NCBI RefSeq assembly: GCF_024138675.1
Contig: NZ_CP090959.1
Span: 1,116,001-1,180,000 of the forward strand
Reading direction: 5' to 3'
DNA length: 64,000 nt
Source of the DNA: Simiduia sp. 21SJ11W-1
GTDB taxonomy: Bacteria > Pseudomonadota > Gammaproteobacteria > Pseudomonadales > Cellvibrionaceae
Below the pieces are notes generated by a model. It saw only the letters and a list, made by a program, of their open reading frames with translations. It searched no databases and was not told the origin of the DNA. The translations under genes and the position numbers were made by a program. Numbering within the stretch: the stretch's first letter is position 1; every line of letters starts with the position of its first letter. Positions 6,144 to 57,239 of the stretch are shown here, one piece after another.

Positions 6144-6911
6144 CTAAATTCTTAAACCCGCATCCACTTCAATGGTGCGCCCAGACAGGTAGTTGTTTTC
6201 AAGAATAAATTGCGCGGTATGGGCAATGTGTTCGGGCTGGCCCATACGCCCCAGTGGCACCGCCATACGAATTAAATCCAGCGTCTCGGGTTTCATGGAT
6301 TGGGTCATTTCTGTTTCCACAAATCCCGGTGCAATGGCCATGGCGCGGATTTTATAGCGCGCAAGTTCCTTGGCCCAGGTTACCGTGAGCGCTTCTACGC
6401 CGGCTTTGGCGGCGGCATAGTTGCTTTGGCCCACATTGCCGGCCCGTGAAATACTGGCCAGGTTAATGATGGCGGCATCGTCGTTTTGTTGCAGCGCCAT
6501 AATAGAGGCCGCCTCGCGCCCGCACAAAAACACCCCGGTGAGGTTGACATCGATGACCTGCTGCCATTGCTCCAGGCTCATGCGTTTTTCAATGGCGCCG
6601 TCTTTGACTTTCAGCATCATGCCATCGCGGGTGATTCCGGCATTGTTGATGAGCCCGTCGATGCGCTCAAATTGCTCGGCTATCTGGGCGAAGGTACTGA
6701 TGACCGCCGCTTCATCGGCAACGTTACAAGCCAGTGCCAGCGCTTTGGGGCTACCTGCTTCTTTACAGGCCAGGGCCACTTCCTCTAACCGCTCTGCATT
6801 GAGGTCGATCAGGGCAAGCTGCGCGCCAAGGCCTGCCAGGTGCAGCGCCATACCTTTGCCAATGCCCTGGCTCGCCCCGGTGATAACGATTGTAGATGAC
6901 GAAAGTTTCAT
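6144..6911 (-). CDS. SDR family oxidoreductase, FabG-like
   Basis: 255 residues of a classical short-chain dehydrogenase/reductase. The cofactor motif T-G-A-S-Q-G-I-G, the N-N-A-G motif and the catalytic Ser and Y-A-A-A-K (N-Y-A-A-A-K-A-G) are all present, and the end S-G-R-T-I-E-V-D-A-G-L-R-I is typical of FabG-type 3-oxoacyl reductases. An insertion around K-D-G-A-I-E-K-R-M-S-L marks the subfamily often annotated as FabG-like but found outside the fab cluster. The substrate is not known. The ATG at 6911 has AGGGG upstream and is preferred to 6935. It is monocistronic, next to the shared terminator. Confidence 0.9.
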   Translation of the reverse strand: MKLSSSTIVITGASQGIGKGMALHLAGLGAQLALIDLNAERLEEVALACKEAGSPKALALACNVADEAAVISTFAQIAEQFERIDGLINNAGITRDGMMLKVKDGAIEKRMSLEQWQQVIDVNLTGVFLCGREAASIMALQQNDDAAIINLASISRAGNVGQSNYAAAKAGVEALTVTWAKELARYKIRAMAIAPGFVETEMTQSMKPETLDLIRMAVPLGRMGQPEHIAHTAQFILENNYLSGRTIEVDAGLRI

Positions 6912-7043
6912 AAATGCCCCTGTGATTCTGGCCAAAAGTGGAACGTTAAATGGACTCGCGAGTCTAACACAACTGTGTTGATGCCTTGAAAGGTTGAATT
7001 CTTCGGCCCCGGGCCCATCTAGGTACAGAGTAAGGAGGCGAAG

Positions 7044-7460
7044 ATGCCGTTATTGTTGATTTTTATTGCGTTACCCATGGTTGAACTGTGGTTGATGATC
7101 AAGATGGGGGGCGTAATAGGCGCTTTGCCCACGGTTTTATTGGTGATAGCTACTGCCGTTGTTGGCCTGGCCCTGCTGCGGGTGCAGGGGCTGAGCGCAC
7201 TGCTGCGGGCCCAGGCGCGCATGCAGGCGGGGGAGCTGCCCGCCCAAGAGCTGGTGCAGGGCGTGTTTTTGGCGCTGGGCGGCCTGTTGCTGCTGGTGCC
7301 GGGCTTCTTTACCGACGCCATAGGCTTTTTGTGTTTGACCCCCGGCGTGCGCCAGATTCTTGTGTCGGGCATCCTCAAGCGCGGGCGCGTGTATCAGTTC
7401 CGTGGGCCGGGTGCGGCCAAAAATGATGCCATTGAGGGTGAATATCGCCGCGAGCGGTAA
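7044..7460 (+). CDS. fxsA: FxsA family membrane protein
   Basis: 138 residues, with hydrophobic segments near residues 2-22, 28-46 and 74-94 and a charged C-terminal tail. The sequence P-M-V-E-L-W-L-M-I-K-M-G and the later L-L-L-V-P-G-F-F-T-D-A-I-G motif identify the FxsA family. In E. coli FxsA relieves exclusion of phage T7 by the F plasmid when overproduced; its normal role is unclear. The position directly upstream of groES is the same as in E. coli and other gammaproteobacteria, which supports the call. AAGGAGG lies upstream of the ATG. Confidence 0.93.
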   Translation: MPLLLIFIALPMVELWLMIKMGGVIGALPTVLLVIATAVVGLALLRVQGLSALLRAQARMQAGELPAQELVQGVFLALGGLLLLVPGFFTDAIGFLCLTPGVRQILVSGILKRGRVYQFRGPGAAKNDAIEGEYRRER

Positions 7461-7481
7461 AAAAAATTCTACTTGGGGGTG

Positions 7482-7508
7482 TTGAAATTCATTTGGTGGC
7501 CCCCATCT
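7482..7508 (+). promoter_or_regulatory. Sigma32 (RpoH) heat-shock promoter of groESL
   Basis: TTGAA at 7482-7486 and CCCCATCTA from 7501, separated by 14 bases. This matches the RpoH consensus (CTTGAA, 13-15 bases, CCCCATNT). It lies about 130 bases before the groES ATG. No CIRCE inverted repeat was seen, so control by RpoH rather than HrcA is inferred. Confidence 0.85.
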
Positions 7509-7638
7509 AGCCTTCACAAAATTTAACGGCTTGGTGTTTTGGGCGCTTGAATTTTTGCCAATGGGCACTATTTGAGGGTTCAGGCCGCCAGGCCAGCATT
7601 AATCATTGTTTAGCAACGCTAAATTTGGAGACAAATCC

Positions 7639-7932
7639 ATGAAAATCCGTCCATTGAATGACCGTGTAGTGGTTCGCCGCAACGAAGAGGAAGCCAAGTC
7701 TGCAGGTGGCATCCTGCTGGCCGGCGCCGCTAAAGAGAAGCCCAATCAGGGTGAAGTTGTTGCCGTAGGTACCGGCAAGGTTTTGGACAATGGTGATGTG
7801 CGCGCGCCCGCTGTAAAAGTTGGCGATAAAGTGGTGTTTGGCCGCTATGCAGACAGCAACACGCTGAAAGTAGACGGCGAAGAGCTGATCATCATGAGCG
7901 AGAGCGAAATTTACGGTGTGTTGGAAGGTTAA
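7639..7932 (+). CDS. groES: Co-chaperonin GroES
   Basis: 97 residues, the standard length. It starts [13 protein letters not shown] and has the mobile loop ([12 protein letters not shown]) that docks on GroEL. GroES forms a heptameric lid on the GroEL cage and is needed for folding in the cytoplasm. The ATG at 7639 follows GGAGACAAATCC; the frame extends upstream to 7606 but those residues are not part of the family. groEL begins 49 bases downstream, so both are one heat-shock operon behind the RpoH-type promoter. Confidence 0.98.
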
Positions 7933-47288: not shown

Positions 47289-47840
47289 TTAGTAGTTGGT
47301 TGCGAACTTGTTGTTAGATTCGTTGCTCTCGTCTATGGCTTTGTAGTAATCCACTTCAAACATCACGCGATCGCCGCGCGCAAAGTCGCCGGGGGCGAAT
47401 GTCACATCAATGTATTTTTGCTCGCCGGCACCAAAAACCGTTTTGATATTGGCGGCGCTGCCCCAGCTTTGGCCACCTTTTTTCTGATGGGTGCCCCAAA
47501 GCACCATTTCAGCATAGTGGGCGCCGCCCTTGTTTTTTACGGTCACCCGGTAGTTGCCTGGCGCACCCATGGGCTTGGCCGCAACAATGGTGAAATCCGG
47601 CTTTGGCGTGGCGGGTGCGCGTACGGCTTCACTTGTGGCGCGGGCCGGTTGCGTGCTTGCACCTGGCTCGCGACTTTTGGCCTGAATGGTCAGTGGTTTG
47701 CACTTGCCTATCCCGTTTTCAACAACCCATGTTTGACCCATAGGGCAGCGGTGCTTTTCGGGGTTGCCGGCGGCAAATGTCGCTGTGGCGGCGGCCAGCA
47801 GTGCAATGGCAGAGGTAATTTTGATGCTAGATGATTTCAT
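47289..47840 (-). CDS. Small exported protein with CARDB-like beta domain
   Basis: 183 residues with a signal peptide ending A-T-A-T-F-A. Two Cys (H-R-C-P-M-G-Q and G-K-C-K) form an N-terminal loop, then a low-complexity linker, then a beta-sandwich-like domain (F-T-I-V-A-A-K-P, V-T-V-K-N-K-G-G, V-D-Y-Y-K-A-I-D-E-S-N-E-S-N-N). The last motif is typical of CARDB domains. GGAG precedes the ATG. It follows the gene at 47890 by 49 bases; TGAACC is present at 47886-47881 but without a matching CGAC, so it may share the upstream promoter. Confidence 0.78.
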   Translation of the reverse strand: MKSSSIKITSAIALLAAATATFAAGNPEKHRCPMGQTWVVENGIGKCKPLTIQAKSREPGASTQPARATSEAVRAPATPKPDFTIVAAKPMGAPGNYRVTVKNKGGAHYAEMVLWGTHQKKGGQSWGSAANIKTVFGAGEQKYIDVTFAPGDFARGDRVMFEVDYYKAIDESNESNNKFATNY

Positions 47841-47889: not shown

Positions 47890-48279
47890 TTATTCCACAG
47901 GTACGTAGCGGAAGCACTTGTACGAGAGGTTTAACTTTGAGTTGTGGCTAGTGCCATCGGATGGCAGGCTCACAATGTCATTTTTAATATTGGTGACATC
48001 GGTATCCGGGTTGCAGGTGCGCACGATGGTTTCCGAACGGGCGCAGGTGTATTCGTACCAGGCTTTACCTTCGTGCTTGATCAGCTTTTTACTGACAGGC
48101 GTAAAGCCTTGGGCACAGGCTGCAGGTTTTGGAATGGCACCGGCCACTTGAACCTGAAATTTTGGCTTGGCACTGGTTGCATTGAGTGTGGGGTTCGCCA
48201 GTGATTGGGCGGTGATGAGTGCGCTGGCAATCAATCCGGCCATGGCGATGGTGTGGTGCAGTTTGCGCTGCTGTTTCAT
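47890..48279 (-). CDS. Small exported Cys-containing protein, unknown
   Basis: 129 residues, signal peptide ending A-Q-S-L-A-N. Four Cys in the mature part (A-A-C-A-Q-G-F, Y-T-C-A-R, R-T-C-N-P, Y-K-C-F-R) could form two disulfides. AAGGAGG precedes the ATG. A TGAACC-N16-CGAC element lies 85 bases upstream and is shared with two other small exported genes. Probably a surface or periplasmic effector of the ECF system. Confidence 0.75.
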   Translation of the reverse strand: MKQQRKLHHTIAMAGLIASALITAQSLANPTLNATSAKPKFQVQVAGAIPKPAACAQGFTPVSKKLIKHEGKAWYEYTCARSETIVRTCNPDTDVTNIKNDIVSLPSDGTSHNSKLNLSYKCFRYVPVE

Positions 48280-48363: not shown

Positions 48364-48389
48364 GTCGCAGACCATTGGCAAACGGTTCA
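48364..48389 (-). promoter_or_regulatory. Candidate ECF sigma promoter (TGAACC-N16-CGAC)
   Basis: Minus-strand TGAACC at 48389-48384 and CGAC at 48367-48364, 16 bases apart, with an A/T tract just upstream. The -10-like part extends to CTGCGACACA. It drives the small exported gene at 47890-48279. Confidence 0.6.
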
Positions 48390-48478
48390 TATTTTTTTGC
48401 TGATGTTTCGCCTTGTCTCTATGGCCGCTGCAATCTTCCTTTTTGCACTGTCCCGGTTGTGAGTTCTACTTGTGAGTT

Positions 48479-50449
48479 CTACAGGGGTGCGTTACACAAG
48501 TCCCCTAAATCCGGGGTGCCCGTGGGCCAGAATTGGTTTACCTCTGGCGTCTGCATGCCTTCGTAAAGCGCCGTGGCGATGGCGGCGGCCACCAGCGGTG
48601 AGGCGAAAGAGGTGCCTGTTTGGTAGCGGCCTTGGCCGCGTTCGTTATACGTCCACACATCTTGCCCGGGCGCGCGCCAGAAAACCCTGTTGCCACCATT
48701 GGAAAGTGCCAGCAATCTTAATTGGTTATCGGTGGCACCCACGGCCTGCACTGCCGGGTAGGCCGCCGGATACATAGGGCGTTCAGCGCCACTGTTGCCC
48801 GCTGCAGCCACGAAGGTAACTTGTTTGGCGAGTTGGGTAATTGCTTGTGCCAGCAAGTCGCTGTGCTTGCCGCCAAAACTCATGTTGACCACCAAGGGCT
48901 TGAAGGCCGCGATTTTATCGAGGCCAATTAATAGCCAATCGGTGCGGGTTTCCATATTGCCGGTGGCGTCTTCGGCGAAAACATTCACGGCAAGCAGTTG
49001 CGCCTTGGGCAGCAGGCCCAGATCTTTGCCCACCATCAGCGTTGCCACACCGGTACCGTGCGGGTGGGGATCGGCGTCTTGTGCGGCCACGTGAACGCTT
49101 TGCACCCGGCCTTCAAAGACCGGCAACTGCGCGTTTACGGCGCTGTCTAGCAGAGCCAGACGGGGCGATTGGGGGCAGTGTGAGGGCAGCTGTGCGCCCA
49201 GTAACCGCTGTGCGTACTGGCGCTGTTCGCTGCGCTGTAACCGGTAGCGCTGATTGTTTTCTACCGGCCACTGGTTGGCAATTTGCGCTTTAACCGCCTC
49301 CAGATCCACTGAGTCGGGCACGCGGTAGGTGCTGAGCACCCAGCCAAGAGATGCCAGCGTGCGCCGGCTTTGAATGCGCAAGCCCCACTGGCCCAGGGCC
49401 CTTCGTTGTTGCTCGGCAATAGACATGTTTGGTGCCTGCAGTAGCAATTCTCGCAAGGGGGGCAGCCTGTCGTCGGGATTATCTTGCATCGGCTGTGGCC
49501 CCTGCGGCAGTGCAGCGCCCAGGAGGCTTGTACTGCGCACAATGGGGGCCGCTTCTCGAGGGCCGCTTTGGCGCGCAGCCGGTGGGCTGGGATGGGGTGC
49601 ATCTGTTGCTGTGGCCTGTGGATTTGGTTGGCCTGTGGGGGCGCTATCACCCGGCCTTGCTGTCTTAGCAGTGGCGGCTGGTTGTTGATGGGTTGGTGCT
49701 GTTCGTTGCGCGGCAGTATTGGCCGCGCTTTCGGGTGTCGTATCGGGTGTCGTATTGGGCGTTGTATGAGATGTTGTATCGGGCTTTGCAGCAGGTGCGG
49801 TAGCAGACGCTCTACCCGGTATTGTTCCTGGCGCTGTTTTGGGCGTTGTTGCGGGCGGCGTATCCGGCGCAGTGCCAGTGGCCGTTGGTGGTGAATTTTT
49901 TATTGGCGCTCGCTGTGTGTTTTGCGTTGTATTTTCCGCAGTATTTGGCGTTGTACCGGAATTAGAACCGGAAGTAGAACCTGAAGTTGTACCTGAAGCT
50001 GCCTCTCGGGTTGGATCGCCCGTTGTAGTTTGTGCAGCATCGTCATTGGCGCCGGGGGCAGTTGCGCGCGTGGCTGTCAGCTGGGTGGCGGGCTTCTGGG
50101 GCGCTGTGCCCGGCACCCTTGCCGGGCCCTGTGATGTGCTGGTTGCCTCTGGTCGCGCGCTGGTAGCTGCAGTGCTTGCCGTGGGCATGGCCGTGCCTGT
50201 GGAAAAAGTGCTGGGCCTTGTTGTTGAGGTGAGTGTTGTTGTGGGTATTGTTGCGGATGTAGTAGTGGGTGTAGTTGATGTAGGTGTAGTTGATGTAGGT
50301 GTAGTTGATGTAGGTGTAGTTGAAGATGATGCTGTGGCTTCCGGTGTGCTTGCCGGGGCACTGGTGCCCGGCTCTGGCGTTTGTGCACTGGTGAGGTTTG
50401 CCGCCAAGAGCAGCGGCAAAACAAGCCACAGAGCGGCCATACATTTCAT
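48479..50449 (-). CDS. S8 subtilisin-type serine protease with long Thr/Pro-rich region
   Basis: 656 residues, signal peptide ending L-T-S-A-Q. Residues about 25-310 are Thr/Pro/Ala/Ser-rich low complexity with short repeats such as T-P-T-S-T. A small propeptide-like section (about 330-400) precedes the protease. The triad is visible: Asp near 435 (A-L-L-D-S-A), His near 464 (H-P-H-G-T-G-V), Ser near 614 (G-T-S-F-A-S-P), with the oxyanion Asn in A-A-A-G-N-S-G. Its start overlaps the anti-sigma stop by four bases. Cell-surface or secreted location is likely. Last gene of the operon. Confidence 0.9.
   Translation of the reverse strand: MKCMAALWLVLPLLLAANLTSAQTPEPGTSAPASTPEATASSSTTPTSTTPTSTTPTSTTPTTTSATIPTTTLTSTTRPSTFSTGTAMPTASTAATSARPEATSTSQGPARVPGTAPQKPATQLTATRATAPGANDDAAQTTTGDPTREAASGTTSGSTSGSNSGTTPNTAENTTQNTQRAPIKNSPPTATGTAPDTPPATTPKTAPGTIPGRASATAPAAKPDTTSHTTPNTTPDTTPESAANTAAQRTAPTHQQPAATAKTARPGDSAPTGQPNPQATATDAPHPSPPAARQSGPREAAPIVRSTSLLGAALPQGPQPMQDNPDDRLPPLRELLLQAPNMSIAEQQRRALGQWGLRIQSRRTLASLGWVLSTYRVPDSVDLEAVKAQIANQWPVENNQRYRLQRSEQRQYAQRLLGAQLPSHCPQSPRLALLDSAVNAQLPVFEGRVQSVHVAAQDADPHPHGTGVATLMVGKDLGLLPKAQLLAVNVFAEDATGNMETRTDWLLIGLDKIAAFKPLVVNMSFGGKHSDLLAQAITQLAKQVTFVAAAGNSGAERPMYPAAYPAVQAVGATDNQLRLLALSNGGNRVFWRAPGQDVWTYNERGQGRYQTGTSFASPLVAAAIATALYEGMQTPEVNQFWPTGTPDLGDLCNAPL
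50271..50322. repeat. 15-base tandem repeats inside the protease gene
   Basis: About 3.5 copies of a 15-base unit (plus-strand GTAGTTGATGTAGGT), encoding T-P-T-S-T blocks. The region probably changes length by slippage while staying in frame. Confidence 0.85.
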
Positions 50450-51036
50450 GGCAGCTCTGCCTCAATGGCGGCGTGCACCACGCCGGGCATTTCACCCAGT
50501 GCAGATTCAACTTGGCTGCGGTCGGTGTAGCCTGGCTGCGCTTTGGCAATAAAAATCCGCAAGATGCCAATGCTGCTTGGGCCATCAACAATGCGCGCAT
50601 GGTGTTGTGTGAGCGTGGCGGCCAGATCTTCCCAGCGCAGGTTCGCGTCCAGCTCCAGCTGAATAAGCCAGCCATTGCTGAGTGCACCCGCTTGGCCTGC
50701 TGCAAGCAAGGTGAAATCAGGTGCCGGTGCTGGCCGTGCGAGAATAATAAACTGCACACACAGTACCAAGGCCGCGGCACTCGCCATTGCAGGGCGCCAC
50801 CATTGAGGTTGCGCTTTGGGTGTGTTGAGTTCGCGTTTTAAGCGTGCCCAGCCGAGGTCTGATGCCTGGGCCTGGCCTTGGTGTTTTATTTGCTGTTGGA
50901 TAGCGCGCAGCGCCGCCAGTTCTGCACGCGCTTGTTCCGATTGTGCAAGCCAGGCATCCACGCGTTGCTTTTCTGCCTCAGTCAAACTGCCGTTCACATA
51001 CCAGGGCAATAGTTCGGATAAATCTTCAGTGTTCAT
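50446..51036 (-). CDS. Membrane anti-sigma factor with propeptide-like periplasmic domain
   Basis: 196 residues. Residues 1-70 form a helical cytoplasmic domain like zf-HC2 anti-sigma factors (L-L-P-W-Y-V-N-G-S-L-T-E-A-E), but without the zinc His/Cys ligands. One membrane helix lies at about 83-100. The periplasmic end (121-196: W-L-I-Q-L-E-L, then R-I-V-D-G-P-S-S-I-G-I-L-R-I-F-I, ending P-G-V-V-H-A-A) has the pattern of inhibitor I9/subtilisin propeptides. It sits between the sigma gene and the subtilisin gene, overlapping the latter. I infer that the protease recognises this domain. Confidence 0.78.
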   Translation of the reverse strand: MNTEDLSELLPWYVNGSLTEAEKQRVDAWLAQSEQARAELAALRAIQQQIKHQGQAQASDLGWARLKRELNTPKAQPQWWRPAMASAAALVLCVQFIILARPAPAPDFTLLAAGQAGALSNGWLIQLELDANLRWEDLAATLTQHHARIVDGPSSIGILRIFIAKAQPGYTDRSQVESALGEMPGVVHAAIEAELP

Positions 51037-51097
51037 ATTGAACGTCCTTAGGCTAAATTACGTCTCATGCCTTGGTCGGTTTCATACCGCCCGGGGT

Positions 51098-51637
51098 TCA
51101 TTGGTTTGCCAAGCAGCGCATCAGCAGATTTTTTGCTTGCATCATTCGCGTTTTTACCGTGCCTGTTGGAATTTGCATGACCTCTGCAATTTCCGTGTAG
51201 GGCATCTCTTCAAAAAAGGCGAGCCAAACCACCTCTTTGAGTTTTGCTTTTAATGCATCAACACAGGTGCGCACACTGGCGGCATCTTGCGAAGCGCTGG
51301 CGGCAGCAAATAAATCGCAATCGCAACTGAGATCTTCGTGCAGGCTGATGTCTTCCTGATCCTCATGGCGACGCTTGGCGCGCAGCGCATCAATGGCTTT
51401 AAAGCGCGCCATGCTAAACAACCAGGTGCGCACACGGGCCTCGCCCTGAAAGCTGGCGCCTTTGTGCCACACCTCTAGCATCACGGTGTTGATCACTTCT
51501 GCAATGTCGGCGGGGTTGTGCAGCGTGCGTTGTAGAAACGCCGACAGGGCGCCAGCATGCCGGCGATAGAAACGCTCCATGGCTTGTTGGTCGCCCTTGA
51601 CGATGGCGGCTAATAGCAGTTCGTCTGAATCCGACAC
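51098..51637 (-). CDS. ECF RNA polymerase sigma factor
   Basis: 179 residues from a GTG at 51637, chosen for GGAG and AAGG just upstream; the frame is open further but overlaps the preceding gene. Region 2 (A-E-V-I-N-T-V-M-L-E-V-W, T-W-L-F-S-M-A-R-F-K-A-I-D) and region 4 (Y-T-E-I-A-E-V-M-Q-I-P-T-G-T-V-K-T-R) are complete. It is followed by its anti-sigma gene. The TGAACC-N16-CGAC promoters of nearby small exported genes are its likely targets. Confidence 0.93.
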   Translation of the reverse strand: MSDSDELLLAAIVKGDQQAMERFYRRHAGALSAFLQRTLHNPADIAEVINTVMLEVWHKGASFQGEARVRTWLFSMARFKAIDALRAKRRHEDQEDISLHEDLSCDCDLFAAASASQDAASVRTCVDALKAKLKEVVWLAFFEEMPYTEIAEVMQIPTGTVKTRMMQAKNLLMRCLANQ

Positions 51638-51641
51638 AGCC

Positions 51642-53549
51642 TTACTCCGGTTGATAGACAAATGCGTAATCGGCGCTGGCTGCGAGCATTTTACCAGCAC
51701 TGTTGTGGGCGGTAATGCGCCACAGGTAGCGTTGGCCCGGGTTCAGTTTGCTGCGCACCAATTCTGACAGGGGCGATTGGGTTACCGAGTTTGGCAGCAC
51801 CATACCCACCACAAATTGTGGCTCGCCTGACTGGCCCACCGTTGGCGTGGCACTTGTGATGGGCGCCTGATGATGCAGCGCAAAAATTTGCAATTGATAT
51901 ACGGCGGCGCCAGTGACCGTGGGCCAACGAAAGGGCGTTTGCGCGCTTACCGCTTGTTGGCTGGGCGAGAGCCCGGTCAATGCCAGTAAGCCCTGTTGCG
52001 CCTGCACTTGGTAGCCTGCATCTATCACCCACTCCTGCACCGGGCATTGGGGATCTGTGGCAACCTCTTCGGTGATCAGGTTTCTGTTGGTCACGCAAAA
52101 ACGCAGCAGGTATTTACCGGCCCGCTGTGTGGGCAGCGCTGGGCTTTCCAGCTGAATGCGTTGTGTGCCCGTTACCTGACGCCGCACAAGGGCCAGAGTT
52201 TTAAACAGCGGCAGCGCTTCGGTGCTGCCGGGTTCGGCCAGCTGCCAGCGGCCTTCAAGCAAGCCTGAACCGCTGTAGCTGACGGTAAGCTGTGCTGTGA
52301 GCGCCTCGTTTTCTTTCACCAGTGCCAGGTCGTTACCTGTATCAAAGGCCAGTTGTAGCCCCCGCACCTGCAACTCACCCGGGGAGCCTGTGCGCGCGGC
52401 GTCGAGCGCGCTGCGATTAACCAGCAAGGTCATGTAGGCGCGGGTATTGCCGCCGCCAATGGGGTCGGAGAACACCCGCTCAATCACCAGGCGCGAGCTG
52501 TTGCTGGCGAGCAGTGTTTGCATTAAATCGGTGCCGAGCGCGAGCGTTTCGCTAAATAAAAACGGCCCGCTGCCGGGCGCACTTAGCACGCCGCCTAAGT
52601 TTGCCACCAGCGCGCCATTGGCGGGGTTTACAATGCGCGCGCTCGTTGAAACTACGCCGTTGGTGTGGCCGCTGCCGGTACTGACTTGCCAGCTGAGTTG
52701 TACGGAATTTTCTTGGCTGGCATACACCTGCCGCTGCATGGGTGAAACCCGCGCGGCGGTGAAATTGCCCTGCACGGGAATGATCAACAGGTGCGAGGCC
52801 TGTACGTTATCGCCGGTACCACTGTCGGTAAAGGTGCGATCAATACGTACCTGGCTGATATTTTGCGATTGCCAGCTGCGTACCTGGGCGCTGCTGATCA
52901 TCAAATTTTCAGACAAATTATAGGGTGCCGCACCGGTGCCGTTCAGGGTGCTGCCCAGGGTGCCAAGCACTTGGCCTGTGGCGGGGTTCACCAATTGCCC
53001 CGGCGCGCTGGAGACGCCTGCCGTGTAGGTGGGGGTGGCGGTTACCTGCCAGGTGATGGGCAATAAATTGTTATTCACGGCATTGAGTGTGGATTGGGCG
53101 GGCGTGACGCCGGCGGCACTGATGCTGCCACGGGCAGGCACGTTAAGTGTCAGCGTGCCCACCACCTGGCGGCCAATGCCGTCTGAAAAAATGCGACGCG
53201 CCTCAATTTGGGTAACGCCCGCACTTTGCCAGCTCACCACTTGTGCCGCACTAATGCTCAGGGTTTCAGTGAAATTAAACGGGCCGCTGCCGGCTTGGTT
53301 CAAAGTGCCGCCGAAACTTCCGAGCACATTGAGCGTGGTGGCATCCAGCAGTTGCCCGGGGTTGGAATTGGCGCCACTGCTGTGGGATGCATCTGCTGCT
53401 ACCGTCCAGTTAACAACCAGTGCATTGTTGTTGGCGGTGTTGAGGGTTGCACTGCCGGGCGACACGCTAACGCCCGTGAGCAGGGCAGCGGCGGGCATGG
53501 CCCAGGCCACGAGGGCGAAACACAAAATGTGCGAGATACGTTTCATCAT
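51642..53549 (-). CDS. Exported protein with three tandem Ig-like repeats
   Basis: 635 residues, signal peptide ending M-P-A-A-A. Three related repeats of about 115-118 residues follow (about 24-140, 141-258, 259-375), each with a V-x-P start, an L-x-W-x-V strand, G-x-L-x-G/A-x-G and S-E-x-L/T-E-T-L stretches and a final x-R-x-F-S/T-D. The rest contains a Cys pair and further beta domains (W-P-T-V-T-G-A-A-V-Y-Q-L-Q-I). No known family named. Its start is 2 bases after the barrel gene ends, and the sigma gene follows after 4 bases. Likely a surface partner of the barrel. Confidence 0.8.
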   Translation of the reverse strand: MMKRISHILCFALVAWAMPAAALLTGVSVSPGSATLNTANNNALVVNWTVAADASHSSGANSNPGQLLDATTLNVLGSFGGTLNQAGSGPFNFTETLSISAAQVVSWQSAGVTQIEARRIFSDGIGRQVVGTLTLNVPARGSISAAGVTPAQSTLNAVNNNLLPITWQVTATPTYTAGVSSAPGQLVNPATGQVLGTLGSTLNGTGAAPYNLSENLMISSAQVRSWQSQNISQVRIDRTFTDSGTGDNVQASHLLIIPVQGNFTAARVSPMQRQVYASQENSVQLSWQVSTGSGHTNGVVSTSARIVNPANGALVANLGGVLSAPGSGPFLFSETLALGTDLMQTLLASNSSRLVIERVFSDPIGGGNTRAYMTLLVNRSALDAARTGSPGELQVRGLQLAFDTGNDLALVKENEALTAQLTVSYSGSGLLEGRWQLAEPGSTEALPLFKTLALVRRQVTGTQRIQLESPALPTQRAGKYLLRFCVTNRNLITEEVATDPQCPVQEWVIDAGYQVQAQQGLLALTGLSPSQQAVSAQTPFRWPTVTGAAVYQLQIFALHHQAPITSATPTVGQSGEPQFVVGMVLPNSVTQSPLSELVRSKLNPGQRYLWRITAHNSAGKMLAASADYAFVYQPE

Positions 53550-53551
53550 GG

Positions 53552-55561
53552 TTACAAGTCTCCTGCCGACCATGCCAGTTCAATACCTGCATGGGCCGAC
53601 CATTGTTCCTGGGCCCAGGCAAAGGCGCGGTTGTCTTGCCGCCCGTAGCTGCCACGCAAATACACATTGACGCCGGGCGTGTTGCCCTTGGCTGCCAGTG
53701 CCATCCAGGTGAGCTGCCCGTTGCCGAAATGGCTTAAAAAGTCGTCTTCAATAAACGCCGGATTCGCAAGCTCGCTGCGGTCTGCGCCGTAGTTGTAATT
53801 CAAACTCAGTACCAGCTTTTCGGGGATCAATTGCAGCAGGGTATCAATACCCAGGTTGCGGTTGTAATAGGTATCCCCGAGGTCTGTTTGGGTTTGTCGG
53901 TTGAACTGCGTAAAAAGGTTCACATTGGCGCGGGTTGAGGGCATCCAGCTCATGTTCAGGCCGAGCATGCGGTTTTCCATGTCGGAGCCTGGTTGGTAGA
54001 TGTCGTAGCCGTTAAGCGATACGGCTTCGGAGCGGTCGTCGAACCGGGTGCTGGCCCACTGCAGGCCCCAGCTCCAGGTTGATTGGCTGAAGTTCACACT
54101 GACGCTTTGCTCGTGGGTGAGGTTGTCCAGATCAAAGCCCACGGTCTGTGCGTTGCTGTCTGGTTGGCTGTGTTGGGTTTCGCTAATGTACAGCGTTGCC
54201 GAGGGCGCGCCGAGCACCGCCAATGCGCTGCCGGGCTCGAGCATGGGTACATAATTGACGGTGAGCATTTGGCGCGCGAGAGTTTGGGTGGGCAGTGCGG
54301 GATCATCGGCCTGGTTATTTTGCTCGCTCGACCACTCGAAATTGAGGTTGATACTCTGGCGCCCCAGCTGCGTGACCAACCTGTTTAACGCCACATCGCC
54401 GGGCAGGGTGAGGTTGCCCAGGCTGTAAAATTGCGCCCCCACTTTTTGGTGTTGTAGCGTTGCCGTCCAATAATCCAGCGGGCCAGTGGGCAGTGCGCCA
54501 GATTGCAGGCGGGCCAGCAATTGCAGCGCGGAATCTTGCTCGGCATCGGCGCCGAGATCGATGCCATCGCTATCAAAGCGCGACTCGGCGTACTCTGCAT
54601 GCAGCCAGATAGATTGCTCCATCAAATAGGAATCGAGGCCCAGATTCCAGCTGTCGCCGCCGTAAACAACCGGGTCGCCCGGCGCATATACCCCGGCGCC
54701 GCCGAGCTGGGTTTTACCATCCACATACCCGAGCTTTAGCATCAGTGCATCGCCGGCCAAGTGGGTGTTCAGTGTGGCGCCTTGTCCACGCAGTGTTTGG
54801 CCTGGCAGCACCAGTGCCTCATCTACGCGCGTGCTCGGTTCGCTATTGACCTTAAACAAGCGCAGCTCGGTGCTCTGGCTGGCATTGCCAATGCGCACTT
54901 CGGCGCCGCGCCGCTGAAACATGGAAAACAACAAGTCTTGCTGTTCAATGCGCACATTGCCCACCATGGCACCGGCGCTGAGTGTTGCGCCTTGGTGGCG
55001 GGCCTCAATGCGGTAACTGGGTAGCGCCCATTCTGTGCCGGTGTTGTTGCCCAGGTTTTCGCTGGTGCTGTCGTAGAGGGCGTCCAACTCCACTGTGAGG
55101 CTCAGGTTGTCTTGCAGTTGTGCCGCGCGCAGTGCCCAGCCGCCTTGGCTCGCCAGATGGCGGGCGGCTTGGTAGTCGTCGGGTTCTGATGCGTCTAGCC
55201 GGTAGCTGCTGTCGAGTGACAGCTGGCTGCTCCACTGGCCACTTGGCTCACTGGGGGCGGTAATGGTGAGGACTTGATCCAGCAGGCTTTGGATATCGCC
55301 ATTGGGCGCGAAGGCCAATACCTGCAGTTCGTAGTCACCGGGTGCCAGCGCCATATCCAGGCGCAGTTGCAGTTGCCCATCAGCGATAGTTGCAAACGGG
55401 GTGACGTCGTAACCGCCCAATTCCACCGCCAGGCTGGATTCGGGTGAGGGCAGTTGAGGCAAATTCAAAGCCAGCTGAGTGGTGTTTGCTGCCTGCCCGT
55501 TGACGGCTGCCAATGAAAGGCAAAGTGCCAGCAATAGCCGGCGAAAGTGTGAGTGTTTCAT
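53552..55561 (-). CDS. Outer-membrane beta-barrel protein, operon head
   Basis: 669 residues, signal peptide ending V-N-G-Q-A-A. A short N-terminal beta domain (about 28-115) precedes a long chain of alternating strands with many Asn, Gln and aromatics (e.g. S-L-N-Y-N-Y-G-A-D-R, F-T-Q-F-N-R-Q-T-Q-T), the pattern of a barrel of over 16 strands. It is not a TonB receptor: no plug or TonB box is seen. ATG at 55561 has GGGGAATT upstream. It shares the operon with the Ig-repeat protein, sigma, anti-sigma and protease. Confidence 0.78.
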   Translation of the reverse strand: MKHSHFRRLLLALCLSLAAVNGQAANTTQLALNLPQLPSPESSLAVELGGYDVTPFATIADGQLQLRLDMALAPGDYELQVLAFAPNGDIQSLLDQVLTITAPSEPSGQWSSQLSLDSSYRLDASEPDDYQAARHLASQGGWALRAAQLQDNLSLTVELDALYDSTSENLGNNTGTEWALPSYRIEARHQGATLSAGAMVGNVRIEQQDLLFSMFQRRGAEVRIGNASQSTELRLFKVNSEPSTRVDEALVLPGQTLRGQGATLNTHLAGDALMLKLGYVDGKTQLGGAGVYAPGDPVVYGGDSWNLGLDSYLMEQSIWLHAEYAESRFDSDGIDLGADAEQDSALQLLARLQSGALPTGPLDYWTATLQHQKVGAQFYSLGNLTLPGDVALNRLVTQLGRQSINLNFEWSSEQNNQADDPALPTQTLARQMLTVNYVPMLEPGSALAVLGAPSATLYISETQHSQPDSNAQTVGFDLDNLTHEQSVSVNFSQSTWSWGLQWASTRFDDRSEAVSLNGYDIYQPGSDMENRMLGLNMSWMPSTRANVNLFTQFNRQTQTDLGDTYYNRNLGIDTLLQLIPEKLVLSLNYNYGADRSELANPAFIEDDFLSHFGNGQLTWMALAAKGNTPGVNVYLRGSYGRQDNRAFAWAQEQWSAHAGIELAWSAGDL

Positions 55562-55665
55562 GCAATTCCCCTTGCGTGAACGAGTGCTTGAGCACCCGCT
55601 CGCCCCTGTAATTCCGTGTTCTAAAACCTTTGGCGTGACTGCCAAGTCAGTGGCTGGGCGTGAAT

Positions 55666-55671
55666 ATTATA
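55666..55671 (-). promoter_or_regulatory. Possible sigma70 -10 box of the barrel-to-protease operon
   Basis: Minus-strand TATAAT is a perfect -10 hexamer about 105 bases before the barrel-gene ATG. The region upstream has only a weak -35, and the TGAACC-N16-CGAC element is absent here, so the operon may be under housekeeping control. Confidence 0.35.
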
Positions 55672-55742
55672 CTGATGTTCCAATTATGCAAGTTGGGCGC
55701 TGAGGCCGCGTCGATCCACAGGTTTCTCTTTAAGAGCGCCGG

Positions 55743-55776
55743 AGCCCTGCACGCCGGTTTGACGGCGGGCAGGGCT
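55743..55776. terminator. Hairpin downstream of a small exported gene
   Basis: AGCCCTGC / GCAGGGCT arms enclose CGCCG / CGGCG, a long hairpin without a T run on the minus strand. It may end or protect the 3' end of the transcript from 55794-56300. Confidence 0.5.
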
Positions 55777-55793
55777 GCGTAAAACCTTCAACA

Positions 55794-56300
55794 CTAGAAG
55801 GAGCAAACGGCTTCGTTTTGATCGCCGGTGGCTTGGCCGCCCTGGCTTTCACACAAGTACATAAACAAGTTACAGGTTGAGTTTTCGCCGTTGTACGAGC
55901 AGCAAACGCCACCGGCACAGTCGGCAATTTCATACTTGGGCATAGACTGGGGCGCCGCTACCTGATTGGCGCCACTGGGCGTAGCCGGTTTTGCACCGGG
56001 AATGGGGCGCCCGCTGCGGTGGTGCTGCATGAGCAGGCGGTCGAAGTCCCGTGCTTTCAGTACGCGCTTTGCACTTTGTGGTGCTGCCCGCATGGGCGTT
56101 GCGCGTGGTGCCGGGGTTGCCTGTGCCTTTTGAATGGCGGGCAACAGCAAGCCCTTGGCCTGGTTGCACTCGGGTGAAACAACTTTGCTATCTGCGGGTG
56201 TCGGGCAGGGTTTGGCGACTTGGCGATCGGTGTTGTCGGCCAGTGCCAAATTGGCGCCGCAGGTAAATAGGGCCGCGATAAAAAGTGAACGCATAAACAT
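55794..56300 (-). CDS. Small exported Cys-rich protein, unknown
   Basis: 168 residues with a signal peptide ending A-N-L-A-L-A. A Pro/Ala-rich middle is followed by a Cys-rich end (I-A-D-C-A-G-G-V-C-C-S-Y, S-T-C-N-L, Y-L-C-E-S, A-V-C-S-F), six Cys that could make three disulfides. AAGGAG precedes the ATG at 56300. Its upstream region has a TGAACC-N16-CGAC element. No family recognised; a secreted effector or surface protein is likely. Confidence 0.75.
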   Translation of the reverse strand: MFMRSLFIAALFTCGANLALADNTDRQVAKPCPTPADSKVVSPECNQAKGLLLPAIQKAQATPAPRATPMRAAPQSAKRVLKARDFDRLLMQHHRSGRPIPGAKPATPSGANQVAAPQSMPKYEIADCAGGVCCSYNGENSTCNLFMYLCESQGGQATGDQNEAVCSF

Positions 56301-56358
56301 GATCTTTATCTCCTTGTGAATGATCGGGTCGCACGGTTCTGTGCGCCGTTGTGAGTAG

Positions 56359-56384
56359 GTCGCAGGTGCGCCTTCAATGGTTCA
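56359..56384 (-). promoter_or_regulatory. Candidate ECF sigma promoter (TGAACC-N16-CGAC)
   Basis: Minus-strand TGAACC at 56384-56379 and CGAC at 56362-56359, spacing 16, preceded by an A tract. The -10-like part reads CTGCGACCTA. It lies about 60 bases before the Cys-rich gene's ATG. Confidence 0.65.
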
Positions 56385-56667
56385 TTTTTTCTTGTTAATT
56401 CACCGATCACGATGCAACTACGGCAACAGCCATCAATATCTATGGGCGTTATTGCTCGAAAAGCCGGTAGCAGCCATTTTAGGGCTTATGGCCTGAGTTG
56501 ATATGGGCAATAGGAAATAAGCAGGGCTGCACTTATCAGGATTTAAAATTAACCCGAGGTGGTGCGGTGGGCGTACCTGACAAAACTTAAGAAAGTATGA
56601 GGGGGCCGTGGCGGCTGTGAGCAGTGCCGGTTTTAAAGGCGATAGTAGGTGGTAGTAGGCGTTAGAA

Positions 56668-56694
56668 GGCGCCAACACCTTGGGTGTTGGCGCC
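56668..56694. terminator. Perfect 12-bp stem hairpin
   Basis: GGCGCCAACACC and its exact complement with a three-base loop (TTG), 33 bases after the stop codon of the minus-strand gene at 56727. The flanking T content is modest (minus strand TTCTAACG), so it may be a terminator or a 3' protective hairpin. Confidence 0.65.
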
Positions 56695-56726
56695 TGTTTG
56701 CGAGCTGCTGGCCGGGCTTTGCCTGA

Positions 56727-57176
56727 TTACTTGAGCACGGTTACGTGGCCGCGGTGCTCGCACTTTTTACCCTTGTGTTCACCGGTGGTTACTTTGCCAC
56801 CCACGCAGCTGGATTTCTCTATCAGCTTGGGTGTTGCTTTATCGATGGGTTTGGCGATGCTTACGGGCTTGTGTTGGCGCTTACCGGTGGCCAGGCCGCT
56901 GGCGGCGTCTCGGCTCGGGCTGCCGATCCAGCGTGCGCGCCCTTGTTTCACTTCAAGTAATTGCCCGTCTTCACGTAAAAAGTAGCCGTTGCCCAAGCGC
57001 GATTCCTGGCCGGGTGCGGCATTCAGCGTGGGCCGGGTGGCGGCCAGCCTGTCGAAGCCCTGGTTGGCTTCGGCAACAGCCTTGGCTTCGCCGTCGATGC
57101 CATCAAATTTAATATAGGCTGCCGCATCACAAAATTGTGGGAGCAGAATAAACAGCAGTGGAATGATGAATTTCAT
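56727..57176 (-). CDS. Small exported protein with Hcp-like N-terminal motif
   Basis: 149 residues, signal peptide ending F-C-D-A-A. The mature N-terminus A-Y-I-K-F-D-G-I-D-G-E-A resembles the first strand of Hcp-type tube proteins (I-K-I-D-G-I-K-G-E-S), but the rest of the Hcp fold is missing. The C-terminus has a basic stretch with two Cys (S-S-C-V-G-G-K ... K-K-C-E-H-R-G-H). CAGGAGG precedes the ATG, and a TGAACC-N16-CGAC element lies about 40 bases upstream. Function unknown. Confidence 0.75.
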   Translation of the reverse strand: MKFIIPLLFILLPQFCDAAAYIKFDGIDGEAKAVAEANQGFDRLAATRPTLNAAPGQESRLGNGYFLREDGQLLEVKQGRARWIGSPSRDAASGLATGKRQHKPVSIAKPIDKATPKLIEKSSCVGGKVTTGEHKGKKCEHRGHVTVLK

Positions 57177-57213
57177 GGTACGCCTCCTGGCGATGTGTGG
57201 GTGTTATGGCTTT

Positions 57214-57239
57214 GTCGTGGCAAGTGCGGTGGCGGTTCA
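57214..57239 (-). promoter_or_regulatory. Candidate ECF sigma promoter (TGAACC-N16-CGAC)
   Basis: Minus-strand TGAACC at 57239-57234 and CGAC at 57217-57214, again 16 bases apart, preceded by a T/A tract. It sits in the 90-base gap between the HDOD gene end and the small exported gene. Confidence 0.6.

Follow-up and report, generated by a model that had tools for sequence, protein, structure and literature searches.

Why should a membrane anti-sigma factor, whose gene overlaps that of a secreted subtilase, end in a domain resembling the propeptide of just such a protease? The question is raised by positions 50446 to 51036 of the window, i.e., the whole stretch of 64,000 nucleotides from Simiduia sp. 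21SJ11W-1 that was analyzed here. An earlier note had suggested that the anti-sigma factor binds the neighboring protease and is cut or released by it, thereby freeing the sigma factor. How anti-sigma factors are recognized by site-1 proteases is understood in only a few cases, and the present locus shows a proposed recognition domain, the protease, the sigma factor, and target promoters together.

Architecture of the locus

The core genes and their parts are arranged as follows.

50446..51036, minus strand: anti-sigma factor, 196 aa (ORF), with a cytoplasmic class-I-type domain (aa ~1-75), one transmembrane segment (aa ~82-100), and a C-terminal prodomain-like domain (CTD)
50449..50748, minus strand: modeled CTD (aa 97-196), a disordered start followed by a beta-alpha-beta-beta-alpha-beta domain, probable relative of fervidolysin/subtilisin prodomains
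48479..50449, minus strand: secreted S8 subtilase, 656 aa, with signal peptide, ~300-aa T/P/A/S-rich linker, own prodomain, and catalytic domain (D/H/N/S intact)
50446..50449, minus strand: ATGA in which the anti-sigma stop and the S8 start overlap (ORF coordinates)
51098..51700, minus strand: ECF sigma factor upstream of the anti-sigma gene (longest ORF; the real start may be slightly further downstream)
51642..53573, minus strand: secreted repeat protein ending in an Ig/FN3-like region, a partner conserved upstream in gammaproteobacterial loci
53552..55645, minus strand: predicted secreted/outer-membrane-like protein, ~690 aa, gene 1 of the conserved five-gene order (putative barrel)

The product of 50446-51036 is a class-I-like (ZAS-type) membrane anti-sigma factor with one transmembrane segment, and its cognate ECF sigma gene adjoins. 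The single hydrophobic segment (top 19-residue window, residues 82-100) divides the N-terminal class-I-type domain from the CTD, and the N-terminus matched an NCBIfam antisigma model at 2.5e-8, under that model's cut-off, and zf-HC2 with an E value of 0.009. The H-x3-C-x2-C zinc ligands are absent from the window protein (AWLAQSEQARAEL) and kept in relatives, e.g., in locus L047 (HITTCTTC). The four-base overlap with the protease gene described in the earlier note is real, since both ORFs contain the ATGA at 50446-50449 on the minus strand. The gammaproteobacterial version of the locus carries two extra genes upstream, for the ~690-aa secreted/outer-membrane-like protein and the Ig/FN3-like secreted protein. 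These two uncharacterized products (51642-55645), for which no family match above the cut-off was found, are conserved 5' of the sigma gene in Pseudomonas, Chromatiales, and others.

Judged by its residues, the S8 protease looks active. The trimmed protein matched PF00082 with an E value of 8.7e-23, and the lack of any Pfam match for the untrimmed protein is perhaps due to its low-complexity linker. The catalytic triad D/H/S is intact in the window S8, and among the S8 proteins of the surveyed loci D and H are conserved in 58 of 58 and S in all 51 covered sequences. In the structural model (pLDDT 86, pTM 0.85), a prodomain with the fold order of the CTD, a flexible linker, and the catalytic domain were distinguished, and the top PDB matches were unprocessed pro-subtilisins. 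The S8 proteins have signal peptides, and some are predicted lipoproteins with lipoboxes, which places them in the same compartment as the CTD. The possibility that the CTD stands in for a missing S8 prodomain was ruled out by the N-terminal prodomain region that the S8 proteins themselves bear; because of this region, the CTD would be an extra copy that is dispensable for simple zymogen control.

Two side observations concern the proteases. The linker of the window S8 (49480-50380), located between signal peptide and prodomain, is T/P/S/A-rich and of low complexity, with tandem TPTST repeats. In the shorter S8 proteins of loci L021-L025, L062-L069, L081, L100, and L104, the triad is intact and the oxyanion-hole Asn is unaligned; it may be lost or shifted.

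Relationship of the C-terminal domain to protease prodomains

The earlier note had described the C-terminus as I9/propeptide-like on the basis of three strings, WLIQLEL, RIVDGPSSIGILRIFI, and PGVVHAA. All of them are present, but the last is not C-terminal, as had been stated, because the protein ends with PGVVHAAIEAELP. The relationship to propeptides was likewise supported at the level of the family, but the type was not: by sequence, the family is probably fervidolysin-type. The model PF22148 (Fervidolysin_NPro-like) matched 27 of 55 CTDs of the family, the window member not among them, with a best E value of 4.2e-6, and was by far the commonest Pfam family, whereas Inhibitor_I9 (PF05922) matched neither the window protein nor its CTD nor any of the 55 CTDs. 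The window CTD on its own matched no relevant Pfam family and no prodomain model, and its prodomain ancestry is therefore deduced from the homology of its family. Conservation within the family is modest. Searching the PDB sequences with a profile of the CTDs revealed no relative, and an NCBIfam scan of the CTDs gave chance matches only.

An AlphaFold2 model of the CTD, based on a 33-sequence alignment, has the ferredoxin-like order beta-alpha-beta-beta-alpha-beta with a pLDDT of about 90, so a fold unlike I9, which would have spoken against the idea, was not what the prediction returned. Among the top 50 PDB matches of this model in Foldseek, about 18 were S8 propeptide or pro-subtilisin chains, with probabilities near 1.00, yet none had an E value below 1e-3, and the matches also included unrelated proteins that have the ferredoxin-like fold in common. 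The comparison of profiles was more specific. In HHalign, the profile of the CTDs and that of the prodomains in the neighboring S8 proteins aligned with a probability of 88% and a score of 34.6 over 67 columns, well above chance, as indicated by the controls (no more than 13.05 in any of 60 column shuffles; 10.9 for the reversed profile; at most 16 for S8 catalytic windows; 9.9 for the anti-sigma N-terminus). By subgroup, the probability was 87 to 89% for the CTDs linked to S8 proteases and only 7% for those linked to the C14 proteases described below; both groups of CTDs are clearly homologous (HHalign probability of 99%). It is thus likely, on the strength of these profiles, that the CTD family shares ancestry with fervidolysin/subtilisin prodomains. 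The domain sits at the end of the protein, with a median of 4 residues beyond it.

The CTDs of the C14-linked Burkholderiales group have a conserved PPRE/PPKD tail. Locus L066 has CTD-like ORFs on opposite strands (1387-2091, plus; 265-678, minus) and contains no S8 gene.

Linkage to proteases across genomes

About 100 loci were collected from surveys of relatives, the order, and the phylum and from a profile scan of genome contigs. A genome scan with the single sequence found no relatives; alignments A2 and A3 diverged too much to serve as scan queries, and A5 was effective. Locus L013 and weak matches confined to the N-terminus were excluded as unrelated or kept solely as a comparison group of anti-sigma factors that lack the CTD.

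The gene order across the loci is sigma factor, anti-sigma factor, protease. An S8 gene on the same strand abuts or overlaps downstream, very often via ATGA, in 51 of the 77 loci with a CTD, and in 16 others a secreted C14 caspase-fold protease takes its place (Pfam E values mostly 1e-35 to 1e-39; 1.6e-11 in L070). The remaining loci comprise two that stop at a contig edge and eight that were scored as having no adjacent protease; of the latter, L011 and L017 have an S8 gene slightly further downstream and L048, L058, and L060 have one elsewhere in the locus. The CTD anti-sigma genes of L066 and L094 adjoin neither protease. None of the 26 related anti-sigma genes that lack the CTD has an S8 or C14 gene next door. 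Linked sigma, anti-sigma, and S8 genes, for which the earlier note had proposed a survey, thus co-occur in the presence of the CTD, and the association of CTD and S8 has a Fisher p of 1e-10 (77 versus 26 loci), a value that is too optimistic because not all loci are phylogenetically independent.

Loci of the S8 type occur in Proteobacteria of several classes and in Nitrospiria and Acidobacteria MAGs; those of the C14 type, where named, stem chiefly from Burkholderiales and Rhodocyclaceae. The distribution near the window is patchy, with the query matched in 7 of 58 relatives and in none of three other genomes of the same genus. The trio is found in strains of Pseudomonas and in other Proteobacteria that can be cultured. 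In L083, L085, L087, L092, L096, L101, L049, and L070, the sigma, anti-sigma, and CTD arrangement is followed by a secreted C14 protease, with no S8 gene. In L106, the CTD anti-sigma gene is followed by a HisKA_3 histidine kinase gene (6618-7778) and no protease.

Promoter motif and predicted regulon

The motif TGAACC-N16-CGAC was spotted by eye in the upstream sequences, in which a generic GAAAC-type promoter pattern had yielded nothing, and was tested afterwards. The window contains four exact copies within 9 kb (48364 to 57239), all on the minus strand, which are listed here as predicted sigma promoters together with the predicted regulon.

51075..51100, minus strand: motif ahead of the anti-sigma/S8 pair
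48364..48389, minus strand: motif
47890..48279, minus strand: gene for a 129-aa small secreted protein, putative member of the regulon (promoter motif)
47289..47840, minus strand: CARDB-domain secreted protein, probably co-transcribed with the 129-aa gene
56359..56384, minus strand: motif
55794..56300, minus strand: gene for a 168-aa small secreted protein that contains Cys, putative member of the regulon (promoter motif)
57214..57239, minus strand: motif
56727..57176, minus strand: gene for a 149-aa small secreted protein, putative member of the regulon (promoter motif)

The copy between the sigma and anti-sigma genes lies 64 bases from the anti-sigma start, and the other three lie 63 to 110 bases ahead of genes for small secreted proteins. 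The 3.96-Mb genome has 11 copies in all (17 for the reversed control). The seven copies outside the cluster are not located at comparable gene starts, and the intergenic copies of the genome are the four of the window. Near the anti-sigma or sigma start, the 16-base spacing was found in 27 of the 77 CTD loci, compared with 0 to 2 for each of the other spacings between 10 and 23. Since the motif is also present in C14-linked loci and in 4 of the 26 relatives lacking the CTD, it is tied to the sigma group and not to the CTD. Its placement predicts positive autoregulation of the anti-sigma and S8 genes, together with a small regulon of nearby genes for secreted proteins.

Some of the motif-preceded small secreted proteins share the tail motifs DYNSSRSN and DAASGLxTGKR/HSGRATGKR, possible signals for processing or targeting by the S8 protease (L012, 7283-7675 and 14402-14854; L014, 12162-12599 and 12786-13160; window, 56727-57176).

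A candidate self-reinforcing switch

The reading that we favor, with a probability of roughly 0.5, is a self-reinforcing switch of ECF sigma factor, anti-sigma factor, and dedicated protease, in which the CTD would dock the protease and activation of the protease would lead to cleavage of the anti-sigma factor. At rest, the membrane anti-sigma factor would keep the sigma factor bound in the cytoplasm, and the periplasmic CTD would offer the product of the adjoining protease gene a place to dock, and perhaps hold it in check. The S8 enzyme would become active through a signal that strips it of its prodomain or competes with it for the CTD, and would then cleave the anti-sigma factor on the outer side of the membrane. 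A site-2 protease (the genome encodes one of the M50 type) and cytoplasmic proteases would release the sigma factor, and the freed sigma factor would renew transcription of the anti-sigma and S8 genes and of the genes for secreted proteins beside the locus. Binding of the protease by the CTD, its inhibition, the cleavage, the direction of signaling, and the signal itself are what we infer from this arrangement. The partner that stays constant is a protease, whether S8 or C14, and this suggests proteolysis that targets the anti-sigma factor or is relayed by it. Because C14 proteases can take the place of S8, an exclusive role as a subtilisin inhibitor is unlikely for the CTD family as a whole. 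Several points count against the switch: the prodomain that the S8 protease already has, the C14 partners of the same CTD family, the weak match of C14-linked CTDs to S8 prodomains, the modest conservation of the CTD, and the exceptional loci L106, L066, and L094. We know of no subtilisin prodomain that binds a caspase.

Other readings explain parts of the same data. The CTD may be an ordinary ferredoxin-like sensing or dimerization domain, remotely related to prodomains, with the protease a mere neighbor in the regulon and another protease starting the cleavage. The Foldseek E values above 1e-3, the unrelated ferredoxin-like folds among the matches, the failure of the window CTD alone to match a prodomain model, and the change of protease class while the CTD stays are in line with such a domain; the absence of adjacent S8 or C14 genes from all relatives lacking the CTD and the specificity with which the CTD profile matched the prodomains of the adjacent S8 proteases, above the shuffled and catalytic controls, argue against it, and we consider it rather unlikely. 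Somewhat less credible still is a titration in which the protease is mainly an output and is not the enzyme that cuts the anti-sigma factor: the CTD would capture free mature S8 as an in-trans prodomain, as an inhibitor, or as a check on secretion, and the empty anti-sigma factor would change its state when the protease is busy or exported. Prodomain homology, a terminal position like that of a free propeptide, and predicted co-transcription of both genes from the sigma promoter would suit this model, but caspase-fold partners use the same CTD family, and the S8 protease has a prodomain of its own. That resemblance and adjacency both arose by chance is very improbable; the window protein alone indeed lacks a significant prodomain match, but the PF22148 matches of the family, the linkage survey, and the HHalign controls, taken together, weigh heavily against coincidence.

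Beyond the window, the self-reinforcing switch may exemplify a widespread class of transmembrane signaling based on anti-sigma factors that display a captured prodomain to an extracytoplasmic protease dedicated to them, S8 and C14 enzymes being swapped while sigma factor, anti-sigma factor, and CTD are kept; this generalization is put forward tentatively. If the proposal is true, it would provide a concrete candidate role, and with the adjacent anti-sigma factor a substrate, for bacterial secreted caspases, most of which have no assigned function.

Relation to known systems

No description of prodomain-bearing anti-sigma factors was found in the open-access literature searched, in agreement with the earlier note, whose author knew of no well-described system of this kind. 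Membrane anti-sigma factors with an extracytoplasmic domain that free the sigma factor by proteolysis are likewise found in the RseA/DegS/RseP (sigma-E), RsiW, and RsiV systems. To our knowledge, these have neither a prodomain-like domain nor a cognate S8 protease in the operon. The subtilisin, fervidolysin, and Tk-subtilisin prodomains (PF22148, PF05922) share the beta-alpha-beta-beta-alpha-beta fold and profile homology at the family level with the CTD, which differs in being carried in trans, as part of an anti-sigma factor, and in supplementing a prodomain that the protease already has.

Release of sigma factors by anti-sigma proteolysis is established for RseA/DegS, RsiV, and CalpL/T/S (PMC10028731, PMC5014341, PMC11417357). 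RsiV, which binds lysozyme and is cut by signal peptidase (PMC5014341), is an analogue in the sense of ligand-gated RIP. Three-part systems of ECF sigma factor, inhibitor, and dedicated protease also exist in the CRISPR-linked CalpL/CalpT/CalpS and Csx29/Csx30/CASP-sigma, of which Csx29 has a caspase fold and the locus is autoregulated (PMC10028731, PMC11417357). Those systems are cytoplasmic, triggered by RNA or cyclic nucleotides, and devoid of a prodomain domain, whereas the protease here is a secreted S8 or C14 enzyme. ECF54-type loci have subtilase, carboxypeptidase, and CHAT (caspase-like) neighbors and were described without an anti-sigma factor (PMC8999054). Their likeness, an ECF sigma gene near subtilase and CHAT genes, is one of gene context as described, and in contrast to ECF54 an anti-sigma factor is always present in the loci studied here.
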